Source: Pseudomonadota bacterium
GTDB taxonomy: Bacteria; Pseudomonadota; Gammaproteobacteria; Xanthomonadales; Rhodanobacteraceae
Assembly: GCA_021783385.1 (NCBI GenBank)
Contig: JAJXTX010000065.1
Span: 1-11,546 of the forward strand
DNA length: 11,546 nucleotides
Direction of reading: 5' to 3'
Part shown: positions 42 to 11,546 of the stretch, piece after piece
Position numbering within the stretch: position 1 is the first letter of the stretch
Layout: each line of letters begins with the position of its first letter
The notes under the pieces: model-generated
Databases searched by the model: none
The model's input: the letters and a program-made list of their open reading frames with translations, nothing else
Told to the model about the DNA's origin: nothing
Made by a program: the position numbers and the translations under genes

Positions 42-266
42 ATGGAACAGGTCATCGAATACATCATCGTCGGCGGTCCCGAGCATGGCCTGATCTGCCG
101 CGCGCCGCTGCCGTCGGTGCCACCGCAGGCGATCGCGATCTCCAGCAACGACGGCCAGCTGTGCCGCGTGGCCGCACGTCGCCATTCGGACGACATGGCC
201 ATGCGTATGCTGCTGCTGCATCCGCATGCGACCGGCGAACAGTTCCGCACCATGCTGGCCGCGTGA
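42..266 (+). CDS. Small hypothetical protein, 74 aa
   Basis: I do not recognise this protein. It would be a small soluble polypeptide that opens with MEQVIEYIIVGGPEHG and ends in a helical, Met/Leu-rich stretch followed by FRTMLAA. There is no signal peptide, membrane segment or metal-binding cluster. An in-frame ATG at 6 would add 12 residues. I prefer the ATG at 42 because a weak Shine-Dalgarno-like GTGAG (28-32) lies 9 nt before it and because the added residues (SFPTPLREHTV) look like untranslated leader. The reading frame has codon use compatible with the neighbouring genes, with third positions mostly G or C. A strong inverted repeat with a short T run begins 21 nt after the stop and may end its transcript. 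Because the window starts just upstream, the gene could belong to an operon entering from the left. Confidence 0.55.
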   Translation: MEQVIEYIIVGGPEHGLICRAPLPSVPPQAIAISSNDGQLCRVAARRHSDDMAMRMLLLHPHATGEQFRTMLAA

Positions 267-287
267 GCCACCACGCGGCACCTTTCA

Positions 288-363
288 CAGCTTCCGGTGG
301 GTTCCGGCGCCCGCCCCTGCTCTCCCCCGAGCCAAGGCCCGAGCCCATCGGAAGCTGCCTTTT
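288..363 (+). terminator. Long inverted repeat with T run, candidate terminator
   Basis: Positions 288-301 (CAGCTTCCGGTGGG) pair with 344-357 (CCCATCGGAAGCTG) as a 14-bp stem with a single G-U wobble. CC and TTTT (360-363) follow. The 42-base loop is long for an intrinsic terminator, but the stem is strong and lies 21 nt after the stop of the small gene. It could instead be an attenuator or a structured leader element for the FAD dehydrogenase gene downstream. The pairing is read directly from the sequence; the terminator role is inferred. Confidence 0.45.
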
Positions 364-511
364 CACCCATCGCCAAACCGCTGGCTGAGGCGCAGGCAAT
401 CCGCCGGACCTGCAGTGAACGCCTCCCTGGGCTGCAGCACGACCGCCACCGGGCGCGTCCTCGCCGGCCGCCGCCGCAATCGCCGCACGCGAAGCGCCCA
501 CGCAGCCCGCC

Positions 512-540
512 TTGTTCCGATCGTACGGCGCGTCGACAAT
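512..540 (+). promoter_or_regulatory. Weak candidate promoter for the FAD dehydrogenase gene
   Basis: TTGTTC (512-517) and GACAAT (535-540) are separated by 17 bases and lie 60 bases before the chosen ATG at 601. The -10 matches the sigma-70 consensus at four of six positions and the -35 at three of six. It is the best pair I found in this GC-rich gap, and it could be chance. Confidence 0.22.
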
Positions 541-600
541 GGCGCGCCCGGCCGCAGCACCGCTGTCGCCTTTGTGCCGAACGAGCGAGCGCGCCCAAGC

Positions 601-2232
601 ATGCTGCGACTGACCGACCTCAAACTGCCGCTGGATCACACCGAGGCCGATCTCGCCAAGGCGATCCGCACACGGCTGAAGCTCGGCGCGCACGACCTGC
701 TCGGCTACGCCGTGGCCAAGCGCAGCCACGATGCACGCAAGCGCGGCGCAATCGTGCTGATCTATGCGCTGGACCTCACGCTGGCCGACGAGGCCGCGGT
801 GCTGGCGCGCTTCGCCGATGATCGCCATGTCGGACCCGCTCCCGACACCCGCTATCGTTTCGTCACGCAGGTCGCGCAGGCCCCGGCGCATCGCCCGGTG
901 GTGATCGGCACCGGCCCGTGCGGCCTGTTCGCCGGGCTGCTGCTGGCGCAGATGGGGTTTCGCCCGATCATCCTGGAGCGCGGCAAGGCGGTGCGCGAAC
1001 GCACCAGGGACACCTGGGACCTGTGGCGCAAGCGCAACCTGCACCCGGAGTCGAACGTGCAGTTCGGCGAGGGCGGCGCCGGCACGTTTTCCGACGGCAA
1101 GCTCTACAGCCAGATCCGCGATCCGCAGCACCACGGCCGCAAGGTGCTGACCGAGTTCGTCAAGGCCGGCGCCCCGGAGGAGATCCTGTGGGTGAACAAG
1201 CCGCACATCGGCACCTTCCGGCTGGTGACGATGGTGGAGAACATGCGCGCCACGATCGAATCGCTCGGCGGCGAGATGCGCTTCGGCAGCCGCGTCGATG
1301 ACCTGCTGATCGACACCGATGCCGCCGGTGCGCGCCAGCTGCGCGGGGTGATGCTGGCCGGCGGCGAGCAGATCCGCACCGATCACGTGGTGCTGGCGGT
1401 GGGCCACAGCGCGCGCGACACCTTCGCCATGCTGCACGCGCGCGGTGTGCATCTGGAGGCGAAGGCCTTCTCGATCGGCTTCCGCGTCGAGCATCCGCAG
1501 TCGATCATCGACCGCGCCCGTTTCGGTGCGCAGGCCGGCCACCCGCTGCTCGGCGCGGCCGACTACAAGCTGGTGCATCACGCCAGCAACGGTCGCGCGG
1601 TCTACAGCTTCTGCATGTGCCCGGGCGGCACCGTGGTGGCCGCCATGTCCGAACCCGGGCGCGTGGTGACCAACGGCATGAGCCAGTATTCGCGCAACGA
1701 GCGCAACGCGAATGCAGCCATTGTGGTCGGCATCGACCCGGTGGATTTCACGCCCTACGATGCCAGCGGCAGCCCGCTGGCCGGCATCGCGCTGCAGCGT
1801 GCGCTGGAAAGCCAGGCGTACCTGCTGGGCGGCGAAAATTACAACGCGCCGGGCCAGCTGGTCGGCGATTTCCTCGCCGGCCGCGCCTCGCGCGAGTTTG
1901 GCGAGGTGCTGCCCTCGTTCAAGCCCGGTGTGACCCTGGGCAGCCTCGACCGTGCCCTGCCGGCCTACGCGATTGACGCCATCCGCGAGGCGATGCCCGC
2001 GTTCGAGCGCCAGATCAAGGGCTTCGCGCTGCACGACGCGGTGTTCACCGGGGTGGAGACGCGCACCTCCTCGCCGATCCGCATCCGGCGCGACGACTCC
2101 CTGCAAAGCCTCAATACCCGCGGCCTGTACCCGGCCGGCGAAGGCGCCGGCTACGCCGGCGGCATCCTCTCGGCCGGGGTCGATGGCATCAAGGTGGCCG
2201 AGGCGGTGGCGCTGAGCATGGTTGGCGGCTGA
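601..2232 (+). CDS. FAD-dependent dehydrogenase (COG2509-like)
   Basis: Predicted cytoplasmic flavoprotein of 543 aa, from the family of uncharacterised FAD-dependent dehydrogenases. The substrate is unknown. An N-terminal region of about 95 residues (starting MLRLTDLKLPLDH) precedes a dinucleotide-binding Rossmann motif at residues 100-124: VVIGTGPCGLFAG, ending in ILERG. The family-typical QFGEGGAGTFSDGKL segment starts at residue 154, with SDGK likely near the flavin. Near the C terminus GLYPAGEGAGYAGG (from residue 508) is the second FAD-contact motif, followed by DGIKVAEAVA. Length and motif order fit the family. The frame stays open upstream to 226, but the family's conserved N-terminus begins at the ATG at 601; no strong Shine-Dalgarno is seen there. 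It looks like an ordinary chromosomal gene flanking the hipBA/Wadjet cassette. Family identification is confident; the reaction is not known. Confidence 0.88.
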   Translation: MLRLTDLKLPLDHTEADLAKAIRTRLKLGAHDLLGYAVAKRSHDARKRGAIVLIYALDLTLADEAAVLARFADDRHVGPAPDTRYRFVTQVAQAPAHRPVVIGTGPCGLFAGLLLAQMGFRPIILERGKAVRERTRDTWDLWRKRNLHPESNVQFGEGGAGTFSDGKLYSQIRDPQHHGRKVLTEFVKAGAPEEILWVNKPHIGTFRLVTMVENMRATIESLGGEMRFGSRVDDLLIDTDAAGARQLRGVMLAGGEQIRTDHVVLAVGHSARDTFAMLHARGVHLEAKAFSIGFRVEHPQSIIDRARFGAQAGHPLLGAADYKLVHHASNGRAVYSFCMCPGGTVVAAMSEPGRVVTNGMSQYSRNERNANAAIVVGIDPVDFTPYDASGSPLAGIALQRALESQAYLLGGENYNAPGQLVGDFLAGRASREFGEVLPSFKPGVTLGSLDRALPAYAIDAIREAMPAFERQIKGFALHDAVFTGVETRTSSPIRIRRDDSLQSLNTRGLYPAGEGAGYAGGILSAGVDGIKVAEAVALSMVGG

Positions 2233-2237
2233 GGCTA

Positions 2238-2275
2238 TATTTCAACTTCAAGGTTGAAATAGCGATATTCAACCT
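2238..2275. promoter_or_regulatory. Candidate HipB operator (interleaved TTCAAC palindromes)
   Basis: TATTTCAAC (2238-2246) and GTTGAAATA (2253-2261) form a perfect 9-bp inverted repeat with a 6-base spacer. The right half also pairs with a third copy: AGGTTGAA (2251-2258) with TTCAACCT (2268-2275). Three TTCAAC/GTTGAA half-sites therefore alternate in orientation across 38 bases, covering the -35 of the candidate hipBA promoter. Autorepression by the HipB dimer, boosted by HipA, is established for E. coli hipBA, whose operators are inverted repeats of a different sequence (TATCC-N8-GGATA). Assignment to this HipB is inference from position. Confidence 0.6.
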
Positions 2276-2282
2276 GTAGATT
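2254..2282 (+). promoter_or_regulatory. Candidate hipBA promoter
   Basis: TTGAAA (2254-2259) matches the sigma-70 -35 box at five of six positions. TAGATT (2277-2282) follows after a 17-base spacer and matches the -10 at four of six. Transcription would start near 2289, giving a leader of about 26 nt. The -35 box lies inside the inverted repeats, so bound repressor would block polymerase. Confidence 0.5.
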
Positions 2283-2311
2283 GATTCTCATCGAATCAAC
2301 TCAGGAGTTGA
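2281..2311 (+). promoter_or_regulatory. hipB leader: palindromes and Shine-Dalgarno
   Basis: TTGATTC (2281-2287) and GAATCAA (2293-2299) are perfect 7-bp arms around 5 bases. Overlapping them, TCAACTC (2296-2302) pairs with GAGTTGA (2305-2311) around AG. The Shine-Dalgarno AGGAG (2303-2307) lies 7 nt before the hipB ATG and is partly inside the second palindrome. GTTGAA at 2307-2312 repeats the operator half-site. The two-base loop is too small for an ideal RNA hairpin, so this may be a further protein-binding site and not an RNA switch. Confidence 0.45.
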
Positions 2312-2314
2312 ATC

Positions 2315-2572
2315 ATGCTGTCTGTTCCGATCCGCCTGCCTGCCCAGCTCGGCGTTGTGTTACGCAGCGCACGCCTGGGTCGCGGTCTCACGCAAACCCA
2401 CGTTGCCCGGGAACTTGGCATTACCGCACAAGCTCTTTCGAAGCTGGAGAACAACGCCGCCAAGGCATCCTTCGAGCGCATTCACCGGCTATGCCAGGTG
2501 CTGGGTCTCGAACTGCTACTCCAAGAAAGGTCCGCCATGAACCTGCGGGACGCGAGCGGGCCGGAGTGGTAG
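2315..2572 (+). CDS. hipB: HipB-like antitoxin, XRE-family regulator
   Basis: Antitoxin and autorepressor of the HipBA type II toxin-antitoxin pair; 85 aa. It has one Cro/CI (XRE) helix-turn-helix. LTQTHVARELGITAQALSKLEN (about residues 25-46) gives the two helices and turn, followed by the dimerisation helices FERIHRLCQVLGLELLL. The C-terminal tail (about residues 72-85) is hydrophilic and ends in Pro-Glu-Trp. E. coli HipB also ends in Glu-Trp on a flexible tail that matters for its turnover and contact with HipA. AGGAG (2303-2307) sits 7 nt before the ATG. The stop at 2570-2572 is 2 nt before the hipA ATG, and the hipA Shine-Dalgarno lies within the last hipB codons, so the two are co-translated. 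The TTA leucine codon at residue 16 is unusual in such a GC-rich setting. The family call is firm; DNA-site specificity is inferred. Confidence 0.9.
   Translation: MLSVPIRLPAQLGVVLRSARLGRGLTQTHVARELGITAQALSKLENNAAKASFERIHRLCQVLGLELLLQERSAMNLRDASGPEW
2563..2566 (+). promoter_or_regulatory. hipA ribosome binding site
   Basis: GGAG ends 8 nt before the ATG at 2575 and lies inside the last codons of hipB. It decides the hipA start against the longer open frame that reaches back to 2281, which would read through hipB in another frame. Confidence 0.65.
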
Positions 2573-2574
2573 CG

Positions 2575-3954
2575 ATGGCGCGCACGCTGGCCCTCGATAT
2601 CTGGATGAATGGCACCTTCGTAGGCACCTGGGAACGCTCCCGGAATGCCTCCGATCGCTTGACCTACGACGCCGACTGGATCACTTCGGCCGCTGGGCGT
2701 CCGCTGTCGCTGTCGCTGCCTTTCAGTCTCGCGCCGGCGCGGCTCGGCGACAAAACTTTACCCTTGCGCGGCGCCAAGGTCGCCGCCTATTTCGAAAATC
2801 TGATCCCGGACAACGAGCGCATCCTGCAGCGACTGCGCGATCGGTATGCGGCGCGTTCCACCGCTCCGTTCGACCTGCTGGCCGCCATCGGGCGCGACTG
2901 CGTCGGCGCCATCCAACTGCTGCCGACCGGCTCGGCTGCAGGCAACATTCACCGCATCGAAGCGGAGCCGCTGGACGAGGCCGGCGTGGCGAACGTCCTT
3001 CGCCACACCACCACGGCGCGGCATTCAGGCGAACCACTCGACGGCGATGCGTTCCGGCTGTCGATTGCCGGCGCCCAGGAAAAGACCGCCCTGCTGCGGC
3101 ATAAAGGACATTGGTGCATCCCACATGGGGTCACCCCAACGACGCATATTTTCAAGCTGCCGCTGGGCGCAGTCGGCAACGTGCAGGCCGACATGCGCCA
3201 GTCGGTCGAACTGGAATGGCTGTGCATGGAGCTGGTGCGCGAATACGGCTTGCCGGTTGCGAAAGTCGAGATCGGTCATTTCGAGGATCAGAAGGCACTG
3301 ATCGTGGAACGCTTCGACCGCGCCCGAGCCACCGATGGCGACTATTGGTTGCGCATTCCGCAGGAGGATTTCTGCCAAGCCACCGGCCTGGCGCCGAACC
3401 GCAAATACGAAAGCGATGGCGGCCCGGGCATCGTTCCCATCATGGACATCCTGCGCGGCTCCGAAAACGCCCCTGCGGATCGCGAGAATTTCTTCAAGAC
3501 GCAACTGTTGTTCTGGATCCTCGCCGCCACCGATGGCCATGCCAAGAACTTCAGCCTCACCCTGCTGGCCGGTGGACGTTACCAACAGACGCCGCTGTAC
3601 GACATCCTGTCGACCTATCCGGTTCAGGGACGCAGTGCGAACCGGATGGACCCGCGCAAGGCCCGCCTGGCGATGGCGGTGACAGGCGACAATCGGCACT
3701 ACCTGCTGCACGAGATCCACCGCTGGCACTGGGTCGACATGGCCGAACAACTGGGCTTGCCCGATGGCGCAGGACCGATCATCACCGATCTCATCGAACG
3801 AACACCACGCGCCCTCGATGCATTGGCGAAGCGTCTGCCTGAGACGTTTCCGGCTGAGCTGTTCGACAGCGTCAGCGCTGGTGTGCTGGCGGCAGTCAAG
3901 CGGCTGGCCAGAGAGCCCGATCGCCGGTCAAGCGTCGCCAGCAGCCCACATTGA
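2575..3954 (+). CDS. hipA: HipA serine/threonine kinase toxin
   Basis: Toxin kinase of the HipBA pair, 459 aa (E. coli HipA is about 440). In E. coli it phosphorylates glutamyl-tRNA synthetase, raises ppGpp and causes growth arrest; the same target here is inferred. The HipA N-terminal subdomain covers about residues 5-115 and the kinase about 160-400. Visible motifs are SIAGAQEK with Ser163 (matching the autophosphorylated Ser150 of E. coli), TPTTHIFKLP with ATP-binding Lys194, VERFDR, the YESDGGPGI segment, catalytic DGHAKN with Asp320, and metal-binding YDI with Asp343. All are intact and the match to E. coli HipA runs along the whole protein, so this is the classic full-length type and not a split HipS/HipT form. 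It is coupled to hipB (2-nt gap). Its last 27 nt overlap the 3' end of jetD on the other strand, and the tail RRSSVASSPH is encoded there. A TTA codon (2758-2760) again hints at transfer. Confidence 0.93.
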   Translation: MARTLALDIWMNGTFVGTWERSRNASDRLTYDADWITSAAGRPLSLSLPFSLAPARLGDKTLPLRGAKVAAYFENLIPDNERILQRLRDRYAARSTAPFDLLAAIGRDCVGAIQLLPTGSAAGNIHRIEAEPLDEAGVANVLRHTTTARHSGEPLDGDAFRLSIAGAQEKTALLRHKGHWCIPHGVTPTTHIFKLPLGAVGNVQADMRQSVELEWLCMELVREYGLPVAKVEIGHFEDQKALIVERFDRARATDGDYWLRIPQEDFCQATGLAPNRKYESDGGPGIVPIMDILRGSENAPADRENFFKTQLLFWILAATDGHAKNFSLTLLAGGRYQQTPLYDILSTYPVQGRSANRMDPRKARLAMAVTGDNRHYLLHEIHRWHWVDMAEQLGLPDGAGPIITDLIERTPRALDALAKRLPETFPAELFDSVSAGVLAAVKRLAREPDRRSSVASSPH

Positions 3955-5091
3955 ACGGATCCGCGCCCACGCCAGGTCCCAGCCGATCCGCTCCTGCTCC
4001 AGCCGCACGCGCACGCCCCAGCGATCGCCGCGCAGGTCGCGATACAGCGCATGCTCGGCACCAGTCAGATGTTCGATGACATCGGCACGGTGAGGCTGCG
4101 GTTCGATCGTCCACAACGCGCGATGGGCCAGCAGGGTCGCCTCGTCCATCAGCAGGGATCGCACTTGTGGCAGATGCCCGCGTAGGCGGCCGAGGATGGC
4201 CAGGCCGTGGGTGTCCAGGTCGCCCCAGTAATGCACCGCTTCGGCGACCCGCAACCACGGCAATTCGTGCAGGCGTTCCACCGCATAGCCGCGTGCCATC
4301 AGCACCACGGCTTCGGGCAGGTCATCGAATGCCAGGCCGGTCTGCTTGTTTTCGACGATGAATACGTGGCGCGCCGGCAGCTCCAGCGCGGCCAGCTGAT
4401 CGAACGGGGCATGGATGTCGCCCAGACCGCCCACGCGTGAACGCAGGGCAGGGTCGAGCACGCGCAGGCGCAGCCGATCGGGCTCGCGACGCAGGCCGCT
4501 GGCTTGCCAGAAATCGGTTTCCCGCGGCAGCCCACCCAGCGTGCGCAGCCACTCGCCGAGCAGGCCTGTGCGCGTCTCCAGCCATTTGCTGTCCAGTCCG
4601 GCGACCGGCAGCTGGCGGGCAAACAGGCGGGACGAGGAATGCGCATGCAGCCACGCCAGCATGTCGCCGAAACGAGAAAATTCGGTGTCGTCGATGTCGG
4701 CCAACATCGCGTACTGACCGCGCAACGGGGCGGTTAGTGCAGGCCAGCGTCGCGCCCATGCGTCGAACCGCCCACGAGCACGCTGCCAACGGGTGGTTTC
4801 GCCAAGCAGTTCGGCCAGCGCATCCGCGTGGGGCAGCAACAGGGCCTCCGGCACCACCTGACGGCCGAGCAGCGGCCAGCGCCGTTCGACCCAGCTCACC
4901 TTGCCGCCATGCCAATCTTTCCACGCCGATCGCCACGCCTCAAACGCCGCCCAGTGCGCGCTGGCCTCCCGCTCGCCCGGTGCTGCAAGCGACACCCGCA
5001 ACGGCCACTCGCCGCCACCGCCCAGCCAGTGGCCGACCTGTCGGCGCCAGCTGATGCGCAGCAGCGCAATGGCTTGCTCAGGGCTGCGCAT
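3928..5091 (-). CDS. jetD: JetD, Wadjet Toprim nuclease subunit
   Basis: Nuclease of the Wadjet system, 387 aa. In characterised systems JetD joins the JetABC loop extruder and cleaves small closed-circular DNA. The N-terminal half (about residues 1-190) is the DUF3322 arm-like region, rich in Trp and Arg. The C-terminal half (about 205-380) is the DUF2220 Toprim domain. The acidic residues are visible: Glu247 in FIVENKQTGLAF and Asp291/Asp293 in YWGDLDTHG, the Toprim E and DxD metal ligands, so it should be catalytically active. The length is normal. It is the last gene of the operon: its start overlaps the end of jetC by 14 nt, with no good Shine-Dalgarno, which suggests re-initiation after jetC. 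Its last 27 nt overlap convergent hipA, and no intrinsic terminator is visible at the junction. The MksG name is used for the homologue in Mks-type systems. Confidence 0.92.
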   Translation of the reverse strand: MRSPEQAIALLRISWRRQVGHWLGGGGEWPLRVSLAAPGEREASAHWAAFEAWRSAWKDWHGGKVSWVERRWPLLGRQVVPEALLLPHADALAELLGETTRWQRARGRFDAWARRWPALTAPLRGQYAMLADIDDTEFSRFGDMLAWLHAHSSSRLFARQLPVAGLDSKWLETRTGLLGEWLRTLGGLPRETDFWQASGLRREPDRLRLRVLDPALRSRVGGLGDIHAPFDQLAALELPARHVFIVENKQTGLAFDDLPEAVVLMARGYAVERLHELPWLRVAEAVHYWGDLDTHGLAILGRLRGHLPQVRSLLMDEATLLAHRALWTIEPQPHRADVIEHLTGAEHALYRDLRGDRWGVRVRLEQERIGWDLAWARIRSMWAAGDA

Positions 5092-8000
5092 GGGTCGTTT
5101 CGCGCACCGCGCGAGGGAGTGCCAGGCGCTGGCTGGCAGCGTCGTATTCGATCATCAGTACGCCAGAATCATGGCGCCCATTGATCTCCACGAAGCAGGC
5201 GCCACCGATGAATGGCTCCAGCGTCATTACCGACTTCAGCGGCGTGGCCACGATCATCTGGAAACCGAAGTTCTCGAAGATGTGCATGGCCATCGCGGTG
5301 AACTCGTTGTCGGCCTTGTCGAACGCCTCGTCCAGCACCACCGCCGCGTATTGCGGCATGCCGCCGTCCTCGTCGCCCAGCTGATAGCGCAGCGCGGCAG
5401 CCAGGCAGGTGGTGGCAAGTTTCTGCCGCTGGCCACCGGACTTGCCGGCGCCGCTGCGGTACACCTCCAGCTGGCGGCCGGTTTGCGCGTCGCGCTCCTC
5501 GCCGATGAACTCCACGTGCAAGCGCACGTCCAGCACCTGCTCGCGCCAGCGCTTGTGTTCGCTCTCGGTCGAGGCCAGCCGCGCGACCAGCTTGCGCAGG
5601 GCCTCGAACTGCATCTCGGCGCGCTCGTGATCGTCGGTCCGCTGGTGCGCCAGCACGTCGCGCAGCTGCTGCCGGAACTCGATCACCTCCGGCAGGCGGC
5701 GATCCTCGGGCTTGATCTGCAGCACGCTGCCGCGGTTGAACGGCACTTTCTCCAGGCTGGCGTTGACGTCCTCCATGCGCGCGCGGATCGACTTGTGCGC
5801 CTGCGCGATATGCGTCTGCAGGGCGACCAGATTCTGCCCGCTCTGGGTGCGCAGCATGTCGAAGAAGCGCGCCTCGTGCGCGGGCAGACCGTCGCGTTCG
5901 AGCCGCTGCAGGCGGGCGAAAAAATCCGCCGCGCTGTCCAGGTTCGCCTGCACATCGCCGGCGTCCTGCGCCCAGCGGCGGCGGAAGCTCTCGAAGCAAG
6001 CCACGATGGCGTGGGTCAGCTCGCCGGCCTCGGCGTCCAGTGTGGCAATACCCTGGTTGAGAGCGCGCTCCATGCCCAGCACGCGCTCGGCCAGGTTGGT
6101 CAGCGTGAACGCCGCGCCCGCCTCACAACGCGCGTCCAGGCCGTGCTGCTGCAGCGGCGTGAGCGGCTTGATGGCGATGTTCTCGGTGCACTGCAGACGT
6201 TCCTTGCCCAGCCGCTCGCGCTCGCGCTGGCAATCCCGGCGCTCGTCGCGCACCTCATTCAGCAGGTTCTGTGCGCTGGCCACCTGTCGCTCCACGACAG
6301 CAATACGTTCGCCCAGCTCATGCAGCGTCGCATCACCCTCGCGCAGTTCCTTCAGCGTGGCCTCGATCGCATCGAGCCGCGTCAACAGCGGACCGGCGTC
6401 GATGTCGCTCCAGCGCAGGTTGGCCAGCGATTGCGCAGCGGCGGCATGACTGGCCTGTTGTGCACGTTCACAACGGATCTGCGCGATCGCCGCGTCGATC
6501 CCGGTGATGCGGCGCGCCAGCTCGCCGGCTTCGGCCTTGTAGAGGTCGAGCTTGGCGCGATTATCGAAGCCAAGCACCCAGTGGCGGCGATCGCCCACGG
6601 CATGGCGGTCGTCCTTTTCGTGGCGGCTGCGCCCGTGCTTGATCTGGCCCTGCGCGGTGAGCCCGCGTTCGCTTTGGCGCAGGCTTTGCACGCTATCTAC
6701 GCAGGCATAGTCGAAACGGTGCAAGAGCTCGCCGCGCAACCAGTCGTGATGCGCGTGATCGGCCAGCTCCAGCTTGTGCACCAGTGCGCGCGGCGAGGGC
6801 GTGGACACATTCGCCACGTCCGCCGCGCCGATGCGGTGGTACACCAGCTTGCCGCCGAGATGGGTTTGATCCACCCACGCGGCAACTTTGGCGTAGTGGC
6901 GTTCGTCTACCAGCAGCGACAGCGCGAAGCCGTGCAGCAGGCGCTCGATCGCGCCACTCCATGCCTGCTCATCGGCGCGCACCTGGATCAGCTCGCCGGC
7001 AAACGGCAGCGCGGTTTGCGCCAGCCCCACCGCTTCGCACAGACGCGCGCGCAGCGCCTGCAGTGGCGCCGGGATGCTGGATGGATGCGCTTCCAACGCG
7101 GCGATTTCGGTGCGGGCATGGGTGAACTCACGTTCGGCCTCGCTCTTCTCCAGCCCCAGCTCCAGCATGCGCTGGTCGGCGCTGGCGGTGGCGTCCTGGC
7201 CCGCATCGAGCAGGCTGCGCGCCTGCGTGAGCTGCTCGGCGAACCCCTGCGGCGTACCGGCCAGCGGCCAGCCCAGTTTTCGGCAGGCGTCACCGGCCAC
7301 GCCGCGGTGGCGCAGGCGGTCGTCGCGATCATGGCGGACGCTGTTGCGCTCGTGCTCCAGCTGCTCGATCTGCGCACCACCCTGCTCACGGTGGCGCGCC
7401 TGCAACTGAGCCAACTCGCGCTGGTGCTGTTCGAGCAGTTGCGTCCGACGTCCCTGCTCGCCTTCCAGGCCCCGATCGAGCGTTTCCAGCTCGGCCACGC
7501 GCACGTCCAGCAACCGCAGGCGCTGGCGCTCGCGGTAGCCGTCCACACCCTGCAGCAATTCGTCCAGCTCGCTGCATTCGCGCCGCGCCTCCAGTAGCCG
7601 CTCGTGCGCCTGCCGCGCGGGGGACAGCGCCTCGATCTGCTCGCGTGCAGTGACGACCGCCTTGTGCGCCTCGTCCAGCTCAGCGAACTCGGCCACCAGC
7701 CGGTCGGCCACTGCGAAGGTTTCCGGTCGCTCCAGCATGAAGTCGCGCAGGAAATGGTTGAGGTCGCCCAGATTCTTGGCCGACTGGGTCTTGTGCAGCA
7801 GCCGCAGTGCGGTGTCGTTGCCGATACCAAGCAGGCGTCGGAAACGCTCGGCGTAGGCGTTGAACGTATCGTGGTGGTGCACCGTGACGAGGCGCTGCTT
7901 GAGCCGGCGCAGGTCCAAGTCGAAGCCATCCAGCTCCGCGGCCAGGTCGAACGGCCGCTCGGCGATGATGAAATGCTTCTGCACGTCGACCGTGCCGGAG

Positions 8001-8452
8001 CTGTTGCCACGGATCCACAACAGCCGCACGAGGGTGATGCAGCGACCCAGCGCGTTGCGGTATTCCAGCGCCAGCGCCGACCAGGTAGCGCCGCGGCGCA
8101 GGTACTGAGTAGCCACTTCACCGGAGTCGTCGTCGTGCCGATCGGCCCAGGCGCCGCGCACGTAGGAGACCAGCGAGCGGTCGCGGCCGCTGCGCTCAGC
8201 CTCGCGCGCGGCGGCGTTGAAATCCACCAGCGACGGCGGCACCAGCAGGGCCGACATCGCATCGAGCAGGGTGGACTTGCCCGAACCGGAGCGCCCCACG
8301 AACAGGAAGCCGCGTTCGGCGATCGGCACCTCGTGCAAGCCGGAGAACGTGCCCCAGTTGAAGACCTGCAGACGGCGCATGCGGAACTGCTCGTCGCGCG
8401 CGGTGGGCAGGTCGGACAGAAACAGCGAAGCACCGTTGTTGGAGGTGGCCAT
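5078..8452 (-). CDS. jetC: JetC, SMC/MukB-like ATPase of Wadjet
   Basis: Motor subunit of the Wadjet complex, 1124 aa, related to MukB/MksB and COG4913 ATP-binding proteins. It dimerises, hydrolyses ATP and extrudes DNA loops together with JetA and JetB. The N-terminal head carries Walker A GRSGSGKST (residues 53-61, Lys59) after MRRLQVFNWGTFSGLHEV. Heptad-rich coiled coils run from about 260 to 490 and 650 to 900, flanking a globular hinge-like region (about 500-640). The C-terminal head has the ABC signature SGGQRQK (from Ser1005) and Walker B VVLDEAFDKAD (Asp1041, Glu1042). All ATPase motifs are intact. The ATG at 8452 overlaps the jetB stop by one base (TGATG), with AGGA at 8462-8465 nine bases upstream. 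The open frame reaches further back to 9031, but only out of frame across jetB. The length suits a type I JetC. Confidence 0.94.
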   Translation of the reverse strand: MATSNNGASLFLSDLPTARDEQFRMRRLQVFNWGTFSGLHEVPIAERGFLFVGRSGSGKSTLLDAMSALLVPPSLVDFNAAAREAERSGRDRSLVSYVRGAWADRHDDDSGEVATQYLRRGATWSALALEYRNALGRCITLVRLLWIRGNSSGTVDVQKHFIIAERPFDLAAELDGFDLDLRRLKQRLVTVHHHDTFNAYAERFRRLLGIGNDTALRLLHKTQSAKNLGDLNHFLRDFMLERPETFAVADRLVAEFAELDEAHKAVVTAREQIEALSPARQAHERLLEARRECSELDELLQGVDGYRERQRLRLLDVRVAELETLDRGLEGEQGRRTQLLEQHQRELAQLQARHREQGGAQIEQLEHERNSVRHDRDDRLRHRGVAGDACRKLGWPLAGTPQGFAEQLTQARSLLDAGQDATASADQRMLELGLEKSEAEREFTHARTEIAALEAHPSSIPAPLQALRARLCEAVGLAQTALPFAGELIQVRADEQAWSGAIERLLHGFALSLLVDERHYAKVAAWVDQTHLGGKLVYHRIGAADVANVSTPSPRALVHKLELADHAHHDWLRGELLHRFDYACVDSVQSLRQSERGLTAQGQIKHGRSRHEKDDRHAVGDRRHWVLGFDNRAKLDLYKAEAGELARRITGIDAAIAQIRCERAQQASHAAAAQSLANLRWSDIDAGPLLTRLDAIEATLKELREGDATLHELGERIAVVERQVASAQNLLNEVRDERRDCQRERERLGKERLQCTENIAIKPLTPLQQHGLDARCEAGAAFTLTNLAERVLGMERALNQGIATLDAEAGELTHAIVACFESFRRRWAQDAGDVQANLDSAADFFARLQRLERDGLPAHEARFFDMLRTQSGQNLVALQTHIAQAHKSIRARMEDVNASLEKVPFNRGSVLQIKPEDRRLPEVIEFRQQLRDVLAHQRTDDHERAEMQFEALRKLVARLASTESEHKRWREQVLDVRLHVEFIGEERDAQTGRQLEVYRSGAGKSGGQRQKLATTCLAAALRYQLGDEDGGMPQYAAVVLDEAFDKADNEFTAMAMHIFENFGFQMIVATPLKSVMTLEPFIGGACFVEINGRHDSGVLMIEYDAASQRLALPRAVRETTHAQP

Positions 8453-9153
8453 CAGTCGTCGTCCTGCAGGGTGGTATCCGCCGGGTCTGCATCCGCGCCA
8501 CTGCGCTGCCCGGACAGATGCTCGCGATAGACCTCGCCCAACGCCTGCACGTCCTCGGCGGAAAACAGCAGTTTCAGCGTGGGCGACACTTCGTGCCGCC
8601 CCTCGCTGCCGCGGATCGGCTGCAGCACATTGTTCTTCTTCATCTTCTCGATGGCGGCAGCGAGCTTTTTGGTGAAGCCGGCGCGGTCGGTGCCCTGCGG
8701 CGGCTCGTATACCGTCAGCTGCGCGTGCAGCTCGGCCTCCTCCACCACCGCGCGCTGGCCCTGCGCCTCGGCCTCGGCCAGGCGCTGGCGCAGGGTCAGC
8801 AGCAGCACCGAGTCGATGAAGGTGAGCGGACTGGAGCGCAGCAGCGTGGGCGTAGCCAGCTCGCCGGTGTCGGCCTGACGCACGAACGCCACGCGCAGGT
8901 CGCGATCGAGTACCAATTCCAGGAACAGCTCGCACAGGCGCGCGCGAACGGCGGCCTCCTCGCGCAGCAGCACCGGCCACAGAAGGGCGTGGCGTTCGGC
9001 GTCCACGCTGGGTCCGGCCAGCAGCTGGCACAGCACGCGGCGCGCCTCGAACGACAGGCTGCCGGTGTCGCCGGGGAACACGGCAGCATCGCCAACGCCA
9101 TCCGGCATCAGCACGACGGCGGCGGATTCGGCCATATCTTCAGACTCGTTCAT
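8452..9153 (-). CDS. jetB: JetB, Wadjet KITE-like subunit (DUF4194)
   Basis: MukE/MksE-like accessory subunit, 233 aa. It binds the JetA kleisin as a winged-helix protein and helps assemble the JetABC extruder. The fold region runs from about residues 34 to 210. SFEARRVLCQLLAG (34-47) begins the first winged helix. A helix-rich middle with TFIDSVLLLTLRQRL (111-125) is typical of DUF4194. A second winged helix contains FTKKLAAAIEKMKKNNVL (160-177) and the strand preceding SPTLKLLF. The C-terminal tail (about 215-233) is acidic and probably disordered. I chose the ATG at 9153, which lies 12 bp after the jetA stop. A second in-frame ATG at 9135 is possible, and neither has a strong Shine-Dalgarno. 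The gene ends in the one-base overlap with jetC. Identification rests on DUF4194-like features and on the jetA-jetB-jetC-jetD order. Confidence 0.87.
   Translation of the reverse strand: MNESEDMAESAAVVLMPDGVGDAAVFPGDTGSLSFEARRVLCQLLAGPSVDAERHALLWPVLLREEAAVRARLCELFLELVLDRDLRVAFVRQADTGELATPTLLRSSPLTFIDSVLLLTLRQRLAEAEAQGQRAVVEEAELHAQLTVYEPPQGTDRAGFTKKLAAAIEKMKKNNVLQPIRGSEGRHEVSPTLKLLFSAEDVQALGEVYREHLSGQRSGADADPADTTLQDDD
8462..8465 (-). promoter_or_regulatory. jetC ribosome binding site inside jetB
   Basis: On the minus strand AGGA lies 9 nt before the jetC ATG, within the Gln-Asp codons at the end of jetB. Together with the TGATG stop-start overlap it fixes the jetC start and points to translational coupling. 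Confidence 0.6.
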
Positions 9154-9165
9154 CCGGCGTGCTCG

Positions 9166-10629
9166 TCAAACAAGTTCATCGCGCTGTTCCTTGCGGAAAT
9201 ACATCAACGGTATGCGGGCGCGACGCTCTTGGCCGTCCTCACCGCGCCAGCTCACCGACTCGTGGCGATCGGCCACCTGCATGGCATGGCGGCTGCCCAG
9301 GGCGAGGTAGCCGATCACGCTGCCCAGCCCCTGCTCGGCCGGATAGAGCTGCAGCACGACGCCCACCGAGCATTGCGCCTGTTCGGCCAGCACGGCACGC
9401 AACTGCTGCTTCAGCTTACGAAAGTCGATCTCCGACTGCGCCACCAACTCGCCCACGCTGTCCAGCGAGATCGACGCGCCCTGGGCCCGCAGCATGCTGC
9501 CGTCGACCTGTCCGTGCCGCGGGTCCTGCAGCCGCCAGCGTGACAGCGAATGTAGCCGCGCGCTGCTCAGGGTCAGCGTGACATTGATGCCCTCGTTGCT
9601 GCGTACCTGGTCACGCAGTCTCAACGCGTCGGCCTGGGTCTGCTTCAGCAGCTGATGCAGCCGCCGCTGTTCCAGATAGGCGCGGCTCTGCACGAAGCCC
9701 TTCAGGCTGCGCGCGAAGTTTTGCAGCACGTCGTGGACGTGACCACCGCGATCGAGCAGGGTGCGGGTGAGGTGCAGCAAAAAGCTGCGTTCACGCCGAT
9801 CCAGCCGACGGGCAAAATCGCGACTGGTCACCGCATCCAGCGCTGCCTCCAGCTGACCGCTCTGCTCGGCATCGGTGAGCAGCCGCCAGAACGCGTCGAA
9901 GCTGCGCCCGGCCTCGCTTTCGGCAATCACGTCGACGCCGGCAAACAGTGCCTCCAGCATCTCGCCACGCTGGCGCTCATCGCCGATGATGCGCTCGCGA
10001 AACTCGCGGTCGAGCTGCTGGAAGTCGTCGCGTACGTGGCGAAAATCCTCGGCCAGCTCGTCGGCCAGCGCGATGATCTCGCGCGTCCTCTCCAGCGCGC
10101 GGGCGTCGTCGAGCACGTCGATCCGGCCTTCGCTGACCGCAGTTATCTGCGCATCGATGCGCTCACGCTCGGCCAGCAGCTCGCTCAGGCGACTATGCGG
10201 ATCGCCGTCGGTCTGGCGGGCCAGCTGCATCAGCTGCTGGATCACCAGCGCCAGCCGGCTTTCGGTAGCTACGCTTCGGCTGTTGTCCAACCCAGCGAGG
10301 AAACGCAGCGCACTCATCGCGGCCGTGGTCAATTCGTACTGCTCTTCACTGGCACCCTCGGGGAAACGCCGCTCCAGCCAGCCCGCGCCAAGCCAATCAG
10401 CGACATAAGCCTGTGCCGTGCGCGGCAGCTCGTGGCCATGCACTCGCAGCTCCTCCAGTTCGCGCGACAGGCGCTCATGCAGGAGCGACGCAGGCAACCG
10501 GCGCTCGGTGTCGAGCAACAGCGTCTGCAGCAAAGCAGCGATCATCGGCGCGTTGTCCGCGGCCAGCAGCTTCCACGTCGATTGCTGGCGCAGCCGCTGC
10601 CACGCGGCGATGCGGGCGCGGGTTTTCAT
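9166..10629 (-). CDS. jetA: JetA, Wadjet kleisin subunit (DUF3375)
   Basis: MukF/MksF-like kleisin that links the JetC heads and binds JetB; 487 aa, first gene of the operon. The N-terminal part (about residues 25-118) is a winged-helix region ending in [17 protein letters not shown], characteristic of DUF3375. A long charged helical stretch follows (about 145-225, with ERERIDAQ and [13 protein letters not shown]). The C-terminal half contains the predicted JetC-contacting domain and ends in [13 protein letters not shown] chose the ATG at 10629: AAGGG (10635-10639) lies 5 nt upstream and [13 protein letters not shown] looks like the native N-terminus. An ATG at 10665 would add 12 residues without a ribosome site. 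The stop lies 12 bp before jetB. No repressor gene sits in the operon, so control must come from the upstream region or from elsewhere. Confidence 0.9.
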
Positions 10630-10634
10630 GGGCA

Positions 10635-10639
10635 CCCTT
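10635..10639 (-). promoter_or_regulatory. jetA ribosome binding site
   Basis: On the minus strand AAGGG is followed by TGCCC and then the ATG at 10629. This decides between the ATGs at 10629 and 10665. The spacer and ATG together are one copy of a TGCCCATG sequence that recurs three more times upstream. Confidence 0.5.
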
Positions 10640-10724
10640 GGCGGCAGGCGACCATGGAGGCGCATCCCGGTGGAGCATGGGCAACGGCTGCAAGAGTGTG
10701 CATGGGCAAAAGTGCGACCGGGCT

Positions 10725-10753
10725 TGGACAGGCATCAGATCGATCAGTGTAAT
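10725..10753 (+). promoter_or_regulatory. Candidate promoter toward the DsbA/FrnE-like gene
   Basis: TGGACA (10725-10730) and TGTAAT (10748-10753) each match the sigma-70 consensus at five of six positions, with a 17-base spacer. Transcription would start near 10760 and leave a leader of about 210 nt before the ATG at 10973. The match is good for a GC-rich genome but unsupported by anything else. Confidence 0.4.
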
Positions 10754-10777
10754 TAGTGACGTCTCAACAGGTGCGAT

Positions 10778-10846
10778 TTTCCTGGCATGGGCAGCCGCGA
10801 TCCGAACAGATCGGCGATAAAACGCTGTTTCCTGGCAGTCCCAGCC
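10778..10846 (+). repeat. Short direct repeat, 50-bp period
   Basis: TTTCCTGGCA at 10778-10787 recurs at 10828-10837, exactly 50 bp on. The match continues after four differing bases with CAGCC (10792-10796 and 10842-10846), giving 15 of 19 identical positions. A spacing near five helical turns would suit two protein sites on one DNA face. Confidence 0.35.
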
Positions 10847-10890
10847 TGATTGATTGGGCTCGGCACACACCATTCCGGCACGACAGCAGC

Positions 10891-10919
10891 GCCGGTCGAT
10901 TGAGTCCGTGGCGACCGGC
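10891..10919 (+). other. GC-rich hairpin in the leader of the DsbA-like gene
   Basis: GCCGGTCG (10891-10898) and CGACCGGC (10912-10919) are a perfect 8-bp inverted repeat around a 13-base loop. It ends 53 nt before the ATG at 10973. There is no T run on either strand, so an intrinsic terminator is unlikely. It could be an RNA leader structure or an operator. Confidence 0.35.
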
Positions 10920-10972
10920 TCCATATCGGAATTCTGTCAACCAACCGGCGCCTTTCGATGGAGCTTCAAACC

Positions 10973-11546
10973 ATGCCCAACGGCCAACCGCTGCGGATCG
11001 ATTTTGTCTCCGACGTCTCCTGCCCATGGTGTGCGATCGGGCTGGCCTCGCTGCAGCGGGCGCTGGCGAATCTGCAGGGAGAGGTCACGGCGCAGATCCA
11101 TTTCCAGCCGTTCGAACTGAATCCGCAGATGCCATCCGAAGGCGAAAGCGCCACGGAACACCTGATGCGCAAATACGGCATCACGGCGGCGCAGGTCGAT
11201 GCGAACCGCGCGGCGATCCGCGCGCGCGGCGAGGCGCTGGGGGTGGCGTTCCGGATGGACCGGCACAGCCGCGTCTACAACACCTTCGACGCGCATCGGC
11301 TGCTGCACTGGGCCGAGCTGGAAGGCCGCCACGTGGCGCTGAAGCAGGCGCTGCTGCGCGCGTACTTCAGCGACGGTGACGACGTGAGCGCGCCGGCCAC
11401 GCTGCTGCGGCTGGCGGGTGAGGCCGGGCTGGATACTGCCCGCGCGCAGCAGATCCTGGCCAGCAACGCCTTTGCGGCAGAGGTGCGCGCACAGGAGCAG
11501 CTCTACCAGCAGCGCGGCATCCGCGCGGTGCCGGCGACCATCATCA
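10973..11546 (+). CDS. DsbA-family oxidoreductase (FrnE-like), 3' truncated by window
   Basis: Thiol-disulfide oxidoreductase of the DsbA superfamily, FrnE type (COG2761). The first 191 residues are visible and the gene runs off the window. The thioredoxin-fold start RIDFVSDVSCPWCAIG holds the CPWC redox pair at residues 17-20. Next come FQPFELNP, the all-helical insertion with EHLMRKYGI, and SRVYNTFDAHRLLHWA, a family signature. Near the cut end, GIRAVPAT carries the cis-proline loop that packs on the active site. There is no signal peptide, so it is cytoplasmic, unlike periplasmic DsbA. FrnE proteins have been linked to oxidative-stress tolerance; the partner here is unknown. The ATG at 10973 has GGAG (10960-10963) 9 nt upstream. 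An in-frame ATG at 10958 would add MELQT but lacks a ribosome site. It is divergent from jetA and looks like an ordinary flanking gene. Confidence 0.9.
   Translation, partial: MPNGQPLRIDFVSDVSCPWCAIGLASLQRALANLQGEVTAQIHFQPFELNPQMPSEGESATEHLMRKYGITAAQVDANRAAIRARGEALGVAFRMDRHSRVYNTFDAHRLLHWAELEGRHVALKQALLRAYFSDGDDVSAPATLLRLAGEAGLDTARAQQILASNAFAAEVRAQEQLYQQRGIRAVPATII

Follow-up and report, generated by a model that had tools for sequence, protein, structure and literature searches.

Type I Wadjet, JetABCD (also EptABCD or MksBEFG), is described as a shape- and size-sensing endonuclease (PMC10586767), and MksBEFG of Corynebacterium glutamicum is a system of this kind under a different name (PMC10123090). 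MksBEF of Pseudomonas aeruginosa works beside SMC (PMC7485682) and likely arose through JetD loss (PMC10586767). In such a system JetA (kleisin), JetB (KITE) and JetC (SMC ATPase) would form an ATP-driven motor extruding DNA loops (PMC10586767). On a small circle extrusion would go to completion, JetD would be switched on and the circle cut, and the chromosome would be spared by a size too great for extrusion to reach completion. Here we analyse a stretch of 11,546 bp, the entire contig C349 of the Rhodanobacter genome G000 (hereafter the window), which carries a complete and probably working JetABCD of type I, and compare it with relatives in which the same motor genes are found without jetD.

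The jet operon of the window

Four contiguous open frames follow each other on the minus strand in the order jetA-jetB-jetC-jetD, from 10629 to 3928 (Table 1). The jetB stop and the jetC start have 1 bp in common, jetC runs 14 bp into jetD, and the frame of jetA is also open further upstream, to an ATG at 10665. An earlier sequence-only reading had proposed these four genes, in this order and at 3928..10629, and its coordinates hold; each protein was placed by Pfam in the family it had named, that is DUF3375, DUF4194, SMC ATPase and DUF3322/Toprim. The motifs were also found where they had been located: Walker A at residues 53-61 of JetC (K59), SGGQ at 1005, Walker B at 1038-1044 (D1041-E1042), and the acidic residues of JetD, which are identical in all 22 JetD sequences kept for comparison (one further sequence with an internal stop was left out). 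With four intact frames and with ATPase and acidic motifs in place, the claim that no subunit is lost or broken is borne out, and type I, which had been only inferred, is now the best PADLOC model for every subunit (JetA1, JetB1, JetC1, JetD1), with scores too high for chance matches (Table 1). NCBIfam gave no Wadjet model for the four proteins, its sole match being that of JetC to SMC, weak and far below the cut-off.

Comparison with solved chains by phmmer aligned JetA and JetC across most of their length. JetD residues 47-379 match C. glutamicum MksG, and the Toprim part matches JetD of P. aeruginosa and E. coli, with E247 aligned to the position mutated in the solved E. coli JetD(E248A); the predicted JetD fold agrees with that of solved JetD/MksG. 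The system has the same four families, in the same order, as the type I JetABCD of E. coli GF4-3 and P. aeruginosa PA14 and agrees with them in the ATPase motifs and in the acidic residues of JetD, but is distant from both in sequence, the phmmer match being limited to approximately residues 230-369 in JetD and absent for JetB. Identity to C. glutamicum MksBEFG (MksG 8b7f) is about 25%. P. aeruginosa MksBEF has a broadly similar set of motor subunits but no nuclease; in contrast to this condensin, which has no JetD/MksG gene beside the motor genes, the window has jetD.

Ratios of non-synonymous to synonymous substitution rates (dN/dS), estimated by the Nei-Gojobori method against three congeners (G002, G005 and G015), were 0.13-0.16 for jetA, 0.26-0.32 for jetB and 0.19-0.21 for both jetC and jetD. 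Since these values are low in all four genes, all four subunits are kept by purifying selection. Based on these data we assign a probability of about 0.93 to the reading that the type I Wadjet of the window is complete and probably functional. By analogy with the published systems, its subunits would be expected to assemble, extrude loops, sense DNA size, cut circles and exclude plasmids. As a system it is ordinary: one more type I Wadjet of a known kind.

Variable site between the FAD and dsbA genes

The Wadjet genes adjoin a hipBA pair, and both lie between a gene for an FAD-dependent protein and a dsbA-like gene (window 2232-10958); jetD and hipA are convergent and overlap by 27 bp. Both flanks were found on one contig in 28 congeners (the congener loci of this site are L018-L037, L113, L114, L122 and L123). 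They are only 90-205 bp apart in 21 of the 28 and enclose cargo in the other 7, which consists of hipA only in G001 and G008 (both with hipB) and in G035, of Wadjet only in G010, of Wadjet with a different hipA in G002, of a TonB receptor gene in G025 and of a short frame without Pfam match in G026. Further Wadjets occupy this site in G216 and G219 (both flanks seen) and in G005, G015 and G222 (one flank). Of 9 Wadjets observed in Rhodanobacter, 8 are thus at this site; the contig includes both flanks in five cases and a single flank in three. JetA itself was found in 5 of 35 congeners. The genome of the window is assigned to Rhodanobacter by its named neighbours, such as R. thiooxydans LCS2, whose JetA matches that of the window at 86%. 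A distant type of Wadjet lies elsewhere in G030, where the FAD-dsbA site is empty. Two more congeners, G220 and G019, have only C-terminal pieces of JetD adjoining dsbA (L122:4203-4319 and L123:380-574), interpreted as what is left of a former Wadjet. Because congeners carry at this place a Wadjet, hipBA, other genes or nothing, the Wadjet is a cargo of a variable site, sporadically present there, and its pairing with hipBA is loose. In G010 (L022) jetC is split by a frame change, due to a sequencing error or a real break, and the hipA match in L122 covers 897 bp only. Origin from a mobile element was considered and rejected: JetA matches in plasmids (11 records) were all below 60% identity and the one phage record was at 34%. 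Searches of the window detected no tRNA, and no Rfam family at the gathering score.

The adjacency of hipA and jetD, seen in the window and in G015 (hipA 76% alike) and also in G002, G005 and G216, though there with another hipA (about 36-40% alike), would be explained if Wadjet and hipBA made one unit, in which growth arrest by hipBA serves as a back-up when Wadjet fails or is attacked. However, Wadjet occurs without hipA in G010 and G219, and hipA without Wadjet in G001, G008 and G035. Two unlike types of hipA stand in the same place, as expected under free exchange of cargo. The probable operators of hipB have no counterpart near jetA, and a HipB operator common to the jet genes was rejected, as no match to the pattern lies there. 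A joint unit is therefore unlikely, and we treat the Wadjet as separate cargo.

Several points weigh against a complete, working system. A simple scan of 10600-11000, limited to the sigma-70 consensus, showed no promoter-like site. JetB found no solved chain by phmmer at E 0.001. The contig belongs to a fragmented genome (2.83 Mb in 377 contigs, 79.8% complete), its right end falling inside the dsbA-like gene and its left end a few hundred bases before the conserved part of the FAD gene. The result of the promoter scan, the empty site in 21 of 28 congeners and the two congeners with JetD fragments only, which indicate that loss occurs, would also suit an operon that is intact yet not working in this host, being silent or newly acquired and not yet used. 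But four open frames and dN/dS of 0.13-0.32 against three congeners argue for use, so that a silent operon is quite improbable and a complete type I Wadjet, probably in working order, is preferred.

Operons without jetD in the Dyella-type lineage

Among 233 genomes of the family a JetA match was registered in 44 (43 above the cut-off). In 24 of these loci jetD follows jetC, 14 have a complete jetA-jetB-jetC without jetD, and 6 fall outside both counts: two run into a contig end (G151 and G222), one retains no more than part of jetC (G261), and three are fragments (G147, at the obgE site described below, G181 and G259). The jetD-bearing operon of G150, cut before jetA, is not among the 44. Whole-genome searches with DUF3322, the N-terminal domain of JetD, found it in none of the 14 jetD-less genomes, and searches with JetD_C were negative in 13 of them; in G157 a contig other than that of the operon gave a partial match (E 9.7e-11, covering positions 27-113 of the family).

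All but one of the 14 operons lie between obgE and murJ, in some cases with asparaginase and cutC genes intervening (loci at this site are L088, L090, L092-L095, L098, L101, L103-L106 and L110; further jetD-less loci are L100, L126 and L127). At the obgE site 13 of 17 operons are without jetD and 4 are with it, versus 1 of 21 without it elsewhere in the family (Fisher p 5e-6, which is not a true probability as the genomes are related). Both states occur in named species, for instance, jetD is missing in D. acidiphila (G135), D. flagellata (G140) and D. monticola (G144), and present in D. marensis (G154) and D. nitratireducens (G145). Directly after jetC the jetD-less operons have an asparaginase gene in 7 of 14 cases (one by Pfam); in 6 of the remaining operons the first marker reached is murJ.

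The motor is preserved in these operons. Walker A, SGGQ and Walker B of JetC are intact in all 14, and dN/dS of jetA, jetB and jetC is 0.04-0.19 in six jetD-less pairs covering 11 of the 14 operons, where the pair G140-G144 spans two separate losses, so that much of its history is older than the losses, a concern that is smaller within the two larger jetD-less groups. Intact motifs and low dN/dS in the tested pairs mean that these proteins are not decaying. PADLOC assigns the tested motor proteins to JetA1, JetB1 and JetC1 (JetA and JetB from a single species, JetC from two); these operons are therefore alike MksBEF in make-up, but their motor proteins, as far as tested, are of type I Wadjet. 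ScpB was found in all 14 jetD-less and all 6 comparison genomes (20/20), so Smc-ScpAB is probably present in the jetD-less genomes and JetABC would be a second condensin there. That defence machinery was converted into such a condensin in species without jetD is the likely reading.

The same comparison raises the question of whether the system of the window could itself act mainly on the chromosome as a condensin and not in defence. P. aeruginosa MksBEF, likely a JetABCD minus JetD, organises the chromosome (PMC10586767), and JetD is missing from many relatives in the sister lineage. Nevertheless, JetD of the window is present, intact and conserved, and Smc-ScpAB is probably available in this genome too, ScpB being found in G000. 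We consider such a role very improbable for the window and retain defence by a complete JetABCD.

Several other traces of the change were looked for and set aside. A remnant of JetD after jetC was taken as absent, the best tblastn match among the 14 loci having E 0.024 (the search reached up to 4.5 kb beyond jetC, or as far as shorter loci allow, which is about 2 kb for L095). In G140 and G144 the jetC stop seems to echo the start of jetD, which has little weight: nearly all of it lies within the old jetC-jetD overlap and could have been kept by jetC coding alone. A replacement nuclease was not seen by eye in G137, in its jetA-jetB insert, or in G156, downstream of jetC; neither these frames nor the genes following jetC in G152 had a Pfam scan. 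The N-terminus of JetB showed no loosening in operons that lost JetD: (L/V)FxGDxG is kept in G151 and in 13 of 14 jetD-less operons, G144 having LFESDTG. As a guess, this motif may be the counterpart of the IFDR motif in PMC10586767.

Some side observations concern inserts and rates. The 3-kb insert of the jetD-less G137 (L090:6214-9259) contains a membrane-protein-like frame. In the JetD-bearing D. nitratireducens (G145) a gene for a YhcG/DUF1016 PDDEXK nuclease (PADLOC PDC-S02) lies between jetA and jetB (L046:11501-12559). Two loci at the obgE site, L102 and L089, are 57% identical in JetD and 78% in JetC; the corresponding values for the window against three congeners are 80-82% and 82-84%. 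A lineage prone to losing JetD may be one in which this protein evolves faster.

Direction of change

The tree of the motor was built with IQ-TREE from joined JetA, JetB and JetC of 35 operons. In it the jetD-less G140 pairs with the jetD-bearing G138 (support 98), and this pair is joined successively by jetD-bearing G145 (95), by G144 (98) and by jetD-bearing G136 (100); several deeper branches are weak (45, 64, 84-85). If gain is allowed, jetD changes 4 times on this tree; if gain is disallowed, 6 losses are needed, and regain of jetD is thus conceivable for the deeper groups. JetD proteins of the obgE site form one group (support 96), as would be expected if jetD was inherited in place. Within this group the branching order of G136, G138 and G145 disagrees with that of the motor proteins (support 82), though the discrepancy is small. 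Two jetD-less genomes of another family of the same order, G047 and G056, with operons in other places, join G152 (FastTree, 0.99).

As a wider control we took 377 genomes of the class, where 38 genomes outside the family had JetA at nearly full length on a single contig; 9 genomes in which only pieces were found were dropped, and the first pass scored at most 4 candidates per genome. JetD was found somewhere in the genome in 34 of the 38 and in none of the other 4 (G047, G056, G286 and G352, the last cut by the contig end). Loss of JetD is therefore uncommon in general and concentrated in the Dyella-type lineage. In G286 a distant jetABC-like operon is followed by a gene for an SNF2 helicase, with no jetD (L128:4666-13300).

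Features of the contig

The toxin-antitoxin pair beside jetD has the N- and C-terminal domains of HipA preceded by a helix-turn-helix antitoxin gene, and kinase activity of HipA is predicted. Three palindromes before hipB are probable HipB operators. Allowing up to 3 mismatches, the scan gave 5 matches on both strands versus 0.01 expected, which is a generous estimate as the pattern was drawn from the same stretch; a looser pattern gave 3 versus 1.45 expected, an excess too small to be informative. A sequence like these palindromes is also present before hipB in G001 and G008. Congener searches for the FAD gene used its part from 601 as the query.

Table 1. Features annotated in the window
Feature	Position	Strand	Description	Support
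FAD-dependent protein gene, left flank	226..2232	+	true start perhaps near 601	Pfam FAD-depend_C 1.1e-76; in 35/35 congeners
Three operator-like palindromes before hipB	2241..2312 (2241, 2268, 2295)	.	27-bp spacing	pattern scan
hipB-like antitoxin gene	2315..2572	+	85 aa, helix-turn-helix	Pfam HTH_3 6.1e-12
hipA kinase toxin gene	2575..3954	+	459 aa from ATG 2575	Pfam HipA_C 2.1e-51, Couple_hipA 1.6e-21 (scored on longer frame 2281-3954)
jetD	3928..5091	-	CAP-Toprim nuclease, 387 aa; E247, D291, D293	Pfam JetD_C 3.4e-53, DUF3322 1.4e-41; PADLOC JetD1 431 bits
jetC	5078..8452	-	SMC-type ATPase, 1124 aa	Pfam AAA_29 6.7e-24, SbcC_Walker_B 1.6e-24; PADLOC JetC1 1410 bits; phmmer vs solved JetC 8as8_A E 2.5e-79, residues 18-1095
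jetB	8452..9153	-	KITE subunit, DUF4194, 233 aa	Pfam PF13835 E 2.3e-45; PADLOC JetB1 320 bits
jetA	9166..10629	-	kleisin, DUF3375, 487 aa from ATG 10629	Pfam PF11855 E 3.5e-153; PADLOC JetA1 646 bits; phmmer vs solved JetA 8as8_E E 1.3e-27
dsbA-like gene, right flank	10958..11545	+	runs off contig	Pfam DSBA 3.2e-31; in 31/35 congeners

Conclusions

The window adds one Wadjet of type I and draws attention to a variable site of Rhodanobacter, and the comparison with jetD-less relatives matters more. Close relatives would display the stages: Rhodanobacter has JetABCD, and in Dyella the forms JetABCD and JetABC coexist. The sister lineage appears to have lost the nuclease repeatedly and to have kept the motor under strong purifying selection, mostly at obgE, and we lean slightly towards the view that defence was here turned into a second condensin several times. 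A change of this kind has already been proposed, the phrase "loss of JetD" being found only in PMC10586767 among the literature searched; its several apparent occurrences among close relatives may be new. No paper linking Dyella or Rhodanobacter with Wadjet was found in a search mostly outside subscription papers. If this view is true, the origin of MksBEF from Wadjet by JetD loss becomes directly testable, and close pairs of the Dyella type that differ in JetD at a shared site would allow a direct test of the step of loss itself.

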